Part shown: in pieces, positions 17,481 to 19,690 of the stretch
Layout of the letters: each line of letters starts with the position of its first letter
Numbering within the stretch: position 1 is the first letter of the stretch
From: Tomitella fengzijianii
GTDB lineage: Bacteria > Actinomycetota > Actinomycetes > Mycobacteriales > Mycobacteriaceae
NCBI RefSeq assembly: GCF_007559025.1
Contig: NZ_CP041765.1
Coordinates: 1,236,679-1,300,678, forward strand
Length of the DNA: 64,000 bases
Reading direction: 5' to 3'
Position numbers and translations under genes: made by a program
The notes under the pieces: generated by a model
The model's input: the letters and a program-made list of their open reading frames with translations, nothing else
What the model was told of the DNA's origin: nothing
Database searches by the model: none

Positions 17481-18575
17481 TCAGTGGTCGAGGACGAGCC
17501 AGCCGCCGTGGTGGTCGCCGACCGTATAGCCCATCCCCAGGCGGGTGCCCAGGGTGTGCAGGTCCCGGGCGTCGAACGTCTGGACATGGCCGAAGCAGGT
17601 CTGCGCCTGTCCCTCGTACGGCACCGCGACGATGACGCGCCGCCGGGCGAGGCGCACCGCTTCCTGCACCACCGCGAAGGCCTTGCGCGGCGGCAGGTGC
17701 TCGAGGAGGTGCAGGACGGTCACCGTGTCGGCGGCGCGGTCGGGCAGGGGCACGGAGGCCGCGTCGCAGGTGAGGGTGCGCAGCGGCCGCTGCATCGCCG
17801 ACGCGGCGTCATCGAGCAGCCGCATCGTGCCGGCACTGAGGTCGGTGGCCGTCACCGACAGTGGGGCTGTGCGGCGATCGCGGGCCAGGCGCAGCGGGAA
17901 GAATCCGAAGCAGGAGCCGAGGTCGAGCACCTCGGTGCCGCTTATCAGCTGCTCGGCACGCCGGTGGACCGGCGCGAATGCGGCCGAACCACGCTCCAGG
18001 GCGGCGACGGAGTTCCGATAGAACGGAATCCACGGCGACGCGGCGACGTGATGCGCCGGGTGCCCGGGGACGTGCCCCGGCGCCGAGTGCACGAGGCCGA
18101 TCAGCGTCGCCTCGAACTCCGCAGGGCCCGCGAGCATCCCGGTGGCGTCGAGCTCGGCGGCGATGAGACCGGCGGCGTCGTCGGAGATCGTCTCCGCGTC
18201 GAATCGGTGGAGCACGGTCAGCGTGCGGCCGGTGCGGAAGGCGCGGAAGTGCCGGGTATCGACGACGCCGGTGCCGCGCGGGCGCTCGGCGAGGAGCGTG
18301 CGCGCCGTCGCGGAGTCCACGTGGCACACGCGCACTCCGTCGCGTTCCCAATGCCCGTGGTCGCCCTGCCGGTGGCCACCCTGCTCGCCGACCCAGCGGC
18401 CCTGGATCCGGTGCGCGTCGTCGTGCCTGTGTCCCAGGCGCTGGTCGCGCTTTGCGGGCCTGCCGGACCCGGGCGCATGGAGCCGCCGGTCGGGCCTGGT
18501 GACGGGCGACGGGGTGACGGAGGATCGGGCGGCGTGGGACGGGTGGACCGGTGCGGTGTGCAGGTCGAGGGTCAT
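17481..18575 (-). CDS. mftM: SAM-dependent methyltransferase, probable mycofactocin methyltransferase
   Basis: This is a 364-residue class I methyltransferase. The SAM motif I is EVLDLGSCFGFFPLRLA, followed by TATDLSAGTMRLL and the post-I/IV region DTVTVLHLLEHLPPRKAF; the last stretch is QTFDARDLHTLGTRLGMGY. MftM methylates a glucose of the mycofactocin oligoglucoside. I assign it because the domain layout fits and because in Mycolicibacterium smegmatis, as I recall, mftM lies beside the methanol dehydrogenase and two-component genes and away from the mft core, exactly as here. The start ATG 18575 has GGAGAA upstream. A generic methyltransferase is the alternative. Confidence 0.7.
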   Translation of the reverse strand: MTLDLHTAPVHPSHAARSSVTPSPVTRPDRRLHAPGSGRPAKRDQRLGHRHDDAHRIQGRWVGEQGGHRQGDHGHWERDGVRVCHVDSATARTLLAERPRGTGVVDTRHFRAFRTGRTLTVLHRFDAETISDDAAGLIAAELDATGMLAGPAEFEATLIGLVHSAPGHVPGHPAHHVAASPWIPFYRNSVAALERGSAAFAPVHRRAEQLISGTEVLDLGSCFGFFPLRLARDRRTAPLSVTATDLSAGTMRLLDDAASAMQRPLRTLTCDAASVPLPDRAADTVTVLHLLEHLPPRKAFAVVQEAVRLARRRVIVAVPYEGQAQTCFGHVQTFDARDLHTLGTRLGMGYTVGDHHGGWLVLDH

Positions 18576-18823
18576 CGAGTTCTCCGGACGCTGTGGCGGC
18601 GCTGCCGGTCACGCTGCCGACGTGTGCGCTTGGTCACATTGACGTTAGGTTCTGGAAGGCCCCGGCGGTCCCTCCGGTGAGGCGCTGTCGTGTGGTCGAC
18701 CGGCGGGTTCCCGGCCTGTCCGGTCGGGCAGGGGCGGCCCGCGCACGAGGGCCGGCGCCGGCATTGCGGCGCCCGCCGGCGAGGCCCGCGATCGACGGCG
18801 GGGAACAGGTGGGCTACGGTGAA
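18576..18823. other. Gap upstream of the SAM riboswitch
   Basis: About 250 bases hold no gene that I can support. The region must contain the mftM promoter (minus) and the promoter of the riboswitch transcript (plus). No motif stands out; GC is high throughout. Confidence 0.5.
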
Positions 18824-18925
18824 CCCGCCAGCTATCAAGAGCGGTCGAGAAACCTGGTTCGATGACGCCGCAGCAACCCCCCGGAAGTCCGGGTGCGGGT
18901 GCTCCCGCCAGGAGCGATGGACGGG
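18824..18925 (+). promoter_or_regulatory. SAM riboswitch (SAM-I/SAM-IV class)
   Basis: The core AGCTATCAAGAGCGGTCGAG followed by GATGACGCCGCAGCAACC matches the S-box consensus. Paired elements are visible. P1 is CCCGCCA (18824-18830) with TGGaCGGG (18918-18925). P2 is GCGG at 18841 with CCGC at ~18868. P3 is CCCGGA/TCCGGG near 18880-18892. P4 is GCTCC/GGAGC at 18901-18914. It precedes a leader peptide and an OsmC-like gene. The 3' strand of P1 ends 7 bases before the leader ATG, so SAM binding could hide the leader's initiation region or act on transcription. A high-GC actinobacterial setting makes SAM-IV plausible; class assignment needs a covariance model. Confidence 0.8.
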
Positions 18926-18932
18926 TGATCAC

Positions 18933-19040
18933 ATGCGCGGCAACGCAACCGCCGTATTCGTTTTCCTGCATTCCCGGCGCTGCATCGATCTGTGCCGGGT
19001 GAGCACCGAGGGCTGTCGAATGCCCCGCGGCCGGGCCTGA
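18933..19040 (+). CDS. Cysteine-rich leader peptide after the SAM riboswitch
   Basis: This 35-residue frame starts at ATG 18933, 7 bases after riboswitch helix P1, and ends TGA at 19040. Its core is SRRCIDLCRVSTEGC, close to the actinobacterial leader peptides of the RRxxDLCRV...C type that sit before sulfur-metabolism genes and act as cysteine-responsive attenuators. Three Cys codons lie within 15 codons. About 150 bases separate it from the OsmC gene. The peptide is probably not a stable product; ribosome movement through the Cys codons would set expression downstream. A proper Shine-Dalgarno is lacking. Confidence 0.65.
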   Translation: MRGNATAVFVFLHSRRCIDLCRVSTEGCRMPRGRA

Positions 19041-19192
19041 CCGGCCGAATTCCCCGCGCCCCCGATCGCAGGCGGCGCACTGCGCTTGCGCGCATCTTCT
19101 TCTTCCCTGCATGACGCTCTGCACGGCGCGTGGCGTCGCGGGCCGCCGTAGGCCCGCGCGCCTGCCGCCGCGCATTCGACGAAAGGACCATC

Positions 19193-19690
19193 ATGACCAT
19201 CACCACGGGCGCCACCACCACCGCTACCACGGACACCGCCGACCAGCACCGGCTGCGCAGCGAGGTGCGCGCGGCCCACGTCCCGGGCACTGCCACGCAG
19301 GTCCGGATCACGGCGCGCGACCACGCCTTCACCATCGACGAGCCGGCCGGACTGGGTGGCGACGACAAGGGTGCCAACCCGGTGGAACACCTGCTGGCGG
19401 CGCTGGGCAGCTGCCAGGCGATCACCTTCCAGGTGTGGGCGCAGAAGCTCGGCGTCGCCCTCGACTCTGTCGACATCGAGCTGGGCGGCGACATCGACCT
19501 GCGCGGATTCTTCGGCCTCGACGAGTCCGTGCGTCCGGGGTTCCAGGGCATCGACGTGCGGGTGAGCATTTCCGGGCCGGAATCGCGCGAGCGCTACGAG
19601 CAGCTCATCGCGACGGTCGAGAAGCACTGCCCGGTTCTCGACAACCTGGCACACGGCGTGCCGGTGACGACCTCCGCGCGCATCGCCTGA
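19193..19690 (+). CDS. OsmC family protein
   Basis: This is a 165-residue OsmC/Ohr-superfamily protein. The two redox cysteines are in LAALGSCQAITFQVW and VEKHCPVLDNLAHGVP, the normal places. OsmC-like proteins reduce organic peroxides or handle thiol-linked substrates. The start ATG 19193 follows GAAAGGA. The long 5' leader carries a SAM riboswitch and a Cys-rich peptide, so the gene is expected to respond to sulfur amino-acid supply rather than (or as well as) peroxide. It stands alone, and a palindromic terminator follows. Confidence 0.85.
   Translation: MTITTGATTTATTDTADQHRLRSEVRAAHVPGTATQVRITARDHAFTIDEPAGLGGDDKGANPVEHLLAALGSCQAITFQVWAQKLGVALDSVDIELGGDIDLRGFFGLDESVRPGFQGIDVRVSISGPESRERYEQLIATVEKHCPVLDNLAHGVPVTTSARIA

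Follow-up and report, generated by a model that had tools for sequence, protein, structure and literature searches.

Tomitella fengzijianii is a soil bacterium. The window, by which we mean the whole 64 kb stretch of its DNA that was analysed, holds a riboswitch, a short reading frame with cysteine codons and a gene for an OsmC-family protein, in this order and on the same strand. The features of the locus are:

18815..18820, plus strand: candidate -10-like hexamer TACGGT, 8 nt 5' of the aptamer, picked out by eye
18829..18923, plus strand: SAM-I (S-box) riboswitch aptamer, RF00162, 50.1 bits over the full model (1-108)
18916..18923, plus strand: 3' strand of helix P1, GATGGACG, whose GATGG pairs with CTATC at 18832-18836 in the cmscan alignment
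18924..18930, plus strand: GGTGATC, a Shine-Dalgarno-like sequence for the leader ORF, immediately next to P1 (sequence and SD scan)
18933..19040, plus strand: leader ORF of 35 codons, MRGNATAVFVFLHSRRCIDLCRVSTEGCRMPRGRA and a stop codon (translation, and same-position orthologs in relatives)
18981..18998, plus strand: codons of the core motif CIDLCR, with Cys codons 17 (18981) and 21 (18993) (translation and motif survey)
19029..19046, plus strand: inverted repeat GGCCGG..CCGGCC across the stop codon of the leader
19041..19180, plus strand: leader-to-gene spacer with C in excess of G, a bias found family-wide
19075..19094, plus strand: weak terminator-like hairpin followed by TCTTCTTCTT (terminator scan)
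19181..19188, plus strand: Shine-Dalgarno-like GAAAGGAC of the OsmC gene (sequence and start-site script)
19193..19690, plus strand: gene for an OsmC-family protein of 165 aa with Cys 74 and Cys 146 (PF02566, 85.3 bits)

Divergent from these and upstream of the riboswitch, an ORF on the minus strand (17481-18575) encodes a putative class I methyltransferase-like protein, as judged by eye.

A clear S-box-type riboswitch had been claimed in the preliminary description of this DNA, and the Rfam covariance check agrees. The match to RF00162 lies above the gathering score of 44.4 bits, is the sole Rfam match above cut-off within the window and the only RF00162 match genome-wide, and RF00162 stays the best of its clan for this aptamer when the threshold is made lax. 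The aptamer would be expected to bind SAM and to alter expression. By eye, a TAnnnT hexamer is seen 8-9 nt 5' of the aptamer in all five OsmC-type loci (TACGGT, TAGGCT, TATGGT, TAGGGT and TACTGT), and a generic sigma-70 scan found no promoter at the window locus.

The 35-codon frame described downstream of the riboswitch is also present (ATG at 18933, stop at 19038-19040) and has orthologs at the same position, but the gap between aptamer and ORF measures 9 nt and not the 7 bases given earlier. The GGTGATC in this gap is presumably complementary to the 3' end of 16S rRNA. As in the Mbox of Mycobacterium tuberculosis, a conserved uORF has its Shine-Dalgarno sequence where the aptamer ends. The overlap of P1 with the initiation region of the peptide, singled out in the preliminary description, is partly borne out: in the window GGTGATC follows directly on the end of P1 at 18923, and in Rhodococcus-type loci GGAGG begins within the P1 3' strand.

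Two outer pairs of the window P1 are non-standard in the cmscan alignment. Across unique leader-type aptamers the inner five pairs (CCATC/GATGG, in the OsmC type CTATC/GATGG) are formed in 56 of 56, and the outer three are weak and mostly unpaired. The aptamer end continues to GATGGAGG in 51 of 75 leader-type loci, with the first two GGAGG bases inside P1, and 19 of the 75 have GGAAGG there; the five OsmC-type loci carry a GGTGA- or AGTGA-type sequence directly behind P1. Since GGAGG is only partly in P1, or the Shine-Dalgarno lies just behind it, masking by P1 would be partial or steric. Covariation in P1 was considered as proof of such masking and rejected: the inner five pairs are near-invariant and so offer no covariation in its support, and the outer pairs fail to hold. 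An SD scan gave SD/P1 overlap in 75 of 76 loci, but it admits looped and overlong duplexes, which is why we preferred the direct comparison of P1-end sequences. The leader starts 4-9 nt past the aptamer in 72 of 76 loci if the start is taken as the first in-frame ATG or GTG at least 3 nt from the aptamer; several loci have alternative starts, and the starts of the Dietzia-group (g4) peptides are uncertain, with GTG within or just past P1.

The window leader has three single Cys codons (17, 21 and 28, the last at 19014-19016), none contiguous with another, and through these it may respond to cysteine. It scores 22.5 bits against the NCBIfam family NF042934, 'putative leader peptide', below the cut-off of 27. 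Among its four OsmC-type orthologs, that of Tomitella cavernea lies above the cut-off with 28.3 bits, and the others reach 22.1, 25.3 and 26.6. Two Rhodococcus-type leaders, one of Rhodococcoides type and one from Blastococcus also belong to the family by score (27.9-36.8). The longest stem at the leader stop is 5-8 bp across the five OsmC-type loci; over 64 loci the mean is 4.8, compared with 4.4 in shuffled sequences.

The protein behind the leader is well above the gathering score of PF02566 (85.3 vs 27.5 bits), and its two cysteines are a mark of the OsmC family. The order aptamer, peptide, OsmC occurs in three of the five Tomitella genomes searched, own genome included, and in two Dietzia-group genomes (G037 and G073), so that the proposed search of relatives for the same order was positive in two other Tomitella and two Dietzia-group genomes. 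All five OsmC-type loci share the peptide end, G(C/R)RM..GR or GRMLIGR, and have an inverted repeat spanning the stop codon; the two Dietzia-group peptides contain HIDLCRV and GRMLIGR and a single Cys each. For these five sequences alone pN/pS is 0.70, a weak signal from only 8 pairs. As to the two remaining Tomitella genomes, G003 has neither an OsmC homologue nor a SAM-I match. G001 has a more distant OsmC homologue (L005, 51% identity) and no SAM-I match; a poly-Cys ORF, MSEYSTAQPQQRCCRGGVGQFGRDCCRRHCCR, precedes this gene without a SAM box and has no NCBIfam family match. In two other g4 genomes a SAM-I box lies directly 5' of a gene for a luciferase-like oxygenase (LLM; L111 and L112).

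Most of the 27 OsmC-homologue loci checked by script have no convincing Cys leader, the script requiring two Cys and hence missing the g4 leaders. Two g6 homologues (L332 and L333) have ORFs with RRR(T/V)IDFGLVCTS(S/G)C about 200 nt upstream; these match NF042936 only weakly and are possibly a divergent relative of the leader motif. A g22 homologue (L318) has an upstream ORF with CSRCCC.

How common is the arrangement? In 301 genomes of the family, SAM-I was found at 146 places in 86 genomes. A short ORF of HxDLCR type follows 76 of these places, in 51 of the 86 genomes and in 8 genera; counting only places above the gathering score, it follows 75 of 131. Many of the 146 places are near-identical, and the 76 leaders include 55 distinct peptides. 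Of the occurrences of the strict motif on both strands of 399,858 nt, 72 lie downstream of an aptamer at no more than 130 nt from it, and 3 lie elsewhere. The leader-type places score 43.9-58.0 bits, a low-scoring subtype of RF00162, and none of the 30 best-scoring SAM-I loci of the class, among the matches listed, has a DLCR leader. The other 70 of the 146 places lack a DLCR leader. These include all places of the genus g22, with 14 SAM-I genomes and a single near-variant (L113). Other Cys mini-ORFs stand at the leader position in 8 of the 70, compared with 37 of 2920 control windows, among them MNICTCTHA and MISSAVRSTRWGRRHIDQCKVTAQSCRG. At L027, L030, L105, L037 and L047 we observed MSICTCTHA, MNICTCTHA and MNTVTTRRPHVLRLHLEWCR.CCCACTRR at this position, ahead of permease genes.

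In the leader frame pN/pS is 0.30 for the SBP group, 0.29 for the permease group and 0.37 for all, and in the shifted frames of the same sets (SBP, permease, pooled) it is 1.2-3.2; the pairs are not independent, and pairs more than 35% different were skipped. As judged from these ratios, the leader reading frame is under frame-specific purifying selection.

A degenerate-pattern scan of the genomes of 84,980 species gave 87 stretches, of which 80 were listed as loci and 37 passed to Rfam. Of the 32 actinomycete loci among these 37, 26 have an RF00162 match next to the leader (for loci from beyond the family the count is 23 of 29); none of the 5 non-actinomycete loci has one. The out-of-family genera tested were Pseudonocardia, Blastococcus, Geodermatophilus, Kineococcus, Plantactinospora, Segeticoccus and Streptomyces. 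Two Streptomyces loci (L165 and L208) have DLCR leaders with the same start geometry and no RF00162 match above gathering; possibly they carry a diverged SAM aptamer.

The genes downstream of the SAM box were classed by a simple script, Pfam-checked on six representatives. Starts and classes were automatic, some starts are clearly wrong, and several leader genes classed as 'other' are SBPs by eye. With these limits, the leader is present or absent as follows: 32 and 4 for SBP_bac_5-type genes, 32 and 13 for BPD_transp_1-type permeases, 5 and 0 for OsmC genes, 0 and 18 for one type of LLM gene, 0 and 10 for genes of FAD-NAD(P)-binding proteins, and 7 and 25 for the remaining classes. The split between classes is imperfect, as one LLM locus (L073) has a Cys mini-ORF. 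By these counts OsmC is a rarer target of the leader (5, compared with 32 SBP, 32 permease and 7 unclassed genes). In several leaderless loci the start codon of the structural gene itself takes this place behind the aptamer, again in the arrangement GATGGAGG..ATG. This suggests that the aptamer acts on whichever start follows it, with SAM as the repressor; LLM and FAD-protein genes without a leader, several of them starting at the aptamer end, are what would be expected in that case.

A second pairing involves another aptamer class. SAM-IV (RF00634) is found in 96 of 101 family genomes. None of 30 SAM-IV loci has a DLCR leader (29 are informative, L290 being cut near a contig end and excluded from the later counts). 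A Shine-Dalgarno sequence and a Cys mini-ORF follow SAM-IV ahead of metY, an O-acetylhomoserine sulfhydrylase gene by sequence (by eye), in 15 of 18 fetched loci and in 16 of 19 with own genome; the same pattern, written after the sequences were known, finds a Cys mini-ORF in 0 of 11 SAM-IV loci with other genes. The fetched loci carry numbers in the range L278-L305, and five metY genes labelled 'other' by a DNA regex (L288, L296, L298, L299 and L303) were reassigned from protein reads. A looser script finds ORFs with at least two Cys, overlapping the gene in another frame, in 5 of the 11 non-metY loci. The mini-ORFs encode 5-6 residues (MCCCLE, MCSCHE, MCCCRT, MCSCRE, MCCCRR, MSRCR, MCRDC and MCCCRQ), and 5 of the 16 counted are MSRCR with a single Cys. 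In the own genome (L334, C1:973740-973854, minus strand) SAM-IV stands ahead of metY and is followed by MCCRS and a stop codon. The one RF00162 and the one RF00634 of this genome, the two models searched, thus both lead into a mini-ORF with Cys codons. The pairing of SAM-IV with metY itself has been annotated in M. avium (PMC3774663).

Three other ORFs of the own genome lie above the NF042934 cut-off, with no RF00162 or RF00634 match nearby. By eye, we take the genes behind them to encode a membrane protein, an amino-acid permease and a TauE/SafE-like protein, and a weaker match to the leader family precedes what is presumably a sulfite-reductase-like protein. Among own-genome loci in or near the leader-peptide family (L152-L157), some show by eye a -10-like box just before the start, as if leaderless.

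What might lie between the leader and the gene? In the window, the 152 nt from leader end to OsmC start contain 64 C and 47 G. C exceeds G in the spacers of 63 of 64 unique loci (distance 60-250 nt, mean difference 0.127), compared with 47 of 90 generic upstream regions of named loci (0.020); the composition sets held 71 loci in which leader and gene are 40-250 nt apart, or 66 after removal of duplicates. Such C-rich, G-poor spacers suggest, by their composition, a fit to Rho loading. The leader-to-gene interval shows no enrichment of intrinsic terminators (6 of 64 loci vs 4.5 shuffled); at the window locus, a terminator scan of 1.2 kb gave 2 overlapping sites where 0.4 were expected. Translational attenuation, in which the leader would pair with the downstream ribosome-binding site, was tried and rejected: over the first 44 loci of a list freed of entries alike in peptide start and gene class, median opening energies of the gene start were 8.7 with the leader free, 8.35 with a stalled ribosome, 8.0 with a ribosome at the stop codon and 9.1 with shuffled leaders (mean z 0.11), which is no signal. 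Leader folding energy was uninformative (z -1.1 and 0.2). The window sequence GTCGAATGC (19015-19023) is an exact nine-base complement of GCATTCGAC (19172-19180), just 5' of the OsmC Shine-Dalgarno; as this match is absent from the four aligned relatives, we give it no weight.

The preliminary description had proposed that two sulfur sensors stand one after the other in the leader and that OsmC has a role in sulfur metabolism. Conservation of the locus and recurrence of the pair at other loci support both proposals at the level of sequence, and for OsmC there is in addition the poly-Cys ORF ahead of its homologue in G001. The AND/OR logic suggested there is plausible. The form of it that we prefer, and consider reasonably probable, is a two-input sulfur gate, in which the gene would be expressed only if SAM and Cys-tRNA are low at the same time. 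Transcription would start just 5' of the SAM-I aptamer. If SAM is bound, P1 will be closed, the 30S subunit will be hindered at the adjoining Shine-Dalgarno and the leader ORF will stay untranslated. If SAM is low, the leader ORF will be translated, and its Cys codons, in their HxDLCR...C context, would report Cys-tRNA: with plentiful cysteine the ribosome would pass the leader fast, with scarce cysteine it would stall. Only a stalled ribosome would permit expression of the downstream gene, OsmC here and ABC-transporter genes elsewhere. The output step would most likely be Rho-dependent termination in the C-rich spacer. One mRNA would then probably check two sulfur signals before a sulfur-related protein is made. 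It counts against the gate model that it holds no explanation of how a stalled ribosome would stop Rho. Also against it are the 70 SAM-I places that lack a DLCR leader, 13 of 45 permease genes among them. Simple codon counting is also weak in the OsmC type, because its Cys codons are few: three, spaced, in the window and one per Dietzia-group peptide.

This last point leads to a rival explanation. If the leader is an arrest peptide, the HxDLCR...C nascent chain will stall the ribosome in response to cysteine or another sulfur metabolite, and SAM-I will gate its synthesis. Conservation reaches beyond the Cys codons: in 4 of 76 leaders DLC is changed, to DLR in three and to DLS in one (with Tyr for His), and the remainder of the motif is kept; the Dietzia-group peptides retain HIDLCRV and GRMLIGR with one Cys; and pN/pS over the core is about 0.3. 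On the other hand, Cys makes up 9.2% of leader residues, 72 of the 76 leaders have 2-4 of them, and the SAM-IV counterparts, at 5-6 residues, are too short for such an arrest motif. We consider this explanation rather unlikely. An equally tentative extension is that Cys-sensing mini-ORFs were coupled to SAM aptamers more than once in actinomycetes, to SAM-I and independently to SAM-IV. The products would be two-ligand gates, with translation of an aminoacyl-tRNA sensor depending on the riboswitch, and the HxDLCR sensor would perhaps be a conserved arrest peptide whose nascent chain registers sulfur status inside the ribosome tunnel. Alternatively, cysteine may play no part, and the riboswitch would control a uORF whose translation, set by SAM, determines Rho termination. 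The C-rich spacers agree with this, as do published riboswitch-uORF pairs of M. tuberculosis, one with Rho (PMC12810186) and one whose authors argue against Rho for ppe2 (PMC11260477). But it is improbable in view of the Cys enrichment and of a motif common to known leader-peptide families, of the Cys mini-ORFs after SAM-IV, and of the poly-Cys ORF that precedes the G001 OsmC homologue without a SAM box.

The two controls could also be independent and merely adjoin, the riboswitch acting on the gene or on transcription alone and the leader acting alone. Leaders without a SAM box do occur elsewhere in the own genome, and SAM boxes occur without a leader. Yet the leader start lies 4-9 nt past the aptamer in 72 of 76 loci, a Shine-Dalgarno sequence marks the aptamer end, and the arrangement is seen in 8 genera, all of which makes independence very improbable; neither folding nor terminator tests revealed another expression platform on the way from aptamer to gene. 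Least credible of all is that the frame is there by chance. In favour of this, the window peptide is short and scores under the NF042934 cut-off, and pN/pS of the OsmC type alone is weak; the motif placement (72 vs 3), the frame-specific conservation in larger sets and the orthologs in Tomitella and the Dietzia group contradict it.

It is customary to regard riboswitches and leader-peptide attenuators as distinct devices. With an almost constant distance between the two, across many genera of actinomycetes and for two classes of aptamer, the riboswitch here probably gates the attenuator. If so, the two-input gate would be a compact natural gate for total sulfur status, with SAM as the end product and cysteine as the entry product. 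On this view OsmC and uncharacterised transporter operons may be members of a regulon, and it becomes testable how riboswitch-controlled uORFs relay their signal to the gene in bacteria that have few intrinsic terminators.

We know other examples of each part. Candidate Cys leader peptides of Actinobacteria were described by Seliverstov et al. 2005 (PMC1262725). Like the window leader, they are short ORFs with Cys codons and no clear terminators, and Rho was suggested; they differ in having Cys runs near the stop codon and in standing ahead of cys operons and cbs, and the parts of that text on which we draw mention no riboswitch. The polycysteine leaderless sORFs of mycobacteria (Canestrari et al. 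2020) are cysteine-responsive attenuators (PMC9031893, PMC9094748, PMC13236596). They resemble our leader as short Cys ORFs ahead of sulfur genes, and NCBIfam leader families match, mostly weakly. Their Cys codons are contiguous, whereas those of the window leader are spaced, and they start at the mRNA 5' end. The window leader would not, since a SAM riboswitch, a Shine-Dalgarno sequence and the -10-like box all lie upstream of it. The uORFC-8-2 motif ahead of cysS in Rhodobacterales is a Cys-codon uORF proposed to be an attenuator; unlike the window leader, it has tandem Cys codons and an intrinsic terminator, and no riboswitch is mentioned in the portion of the source used here (PMC8632094).

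A riboswitch linked to a translated uORF is likewise known, in the Mbox and B12 systems of M. tuberculosis (PMC12810186, PMC11260477). In the Mbox, Shine-Dalgarno sequences at the aptamer end, a translational platform and Rho-dependent termination are combined (PMC12810186); in the case of the B12-ppe2 uORF, termination-reinitiation is preferred to Rho by the authors (PMC11260477). Ligand and targets differ from those of the window leader, and amino-acid sensing is not stated for these uORFs in the material drawn on. Compared with typical SAM-I members of RF00162, the window type is low-scoring, its P1 3' strand is GATGGAGG-like, and a leader ORF follows immediately. A search of the open-licence literature gave no earlier report of a SAM riboswitch in series with a Cys leader. 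Both parts are of known kinds, a riboswitch-controlled uORF and a Cys leader attenuator, and their joining in series, which appears unreported, would be a new variant.
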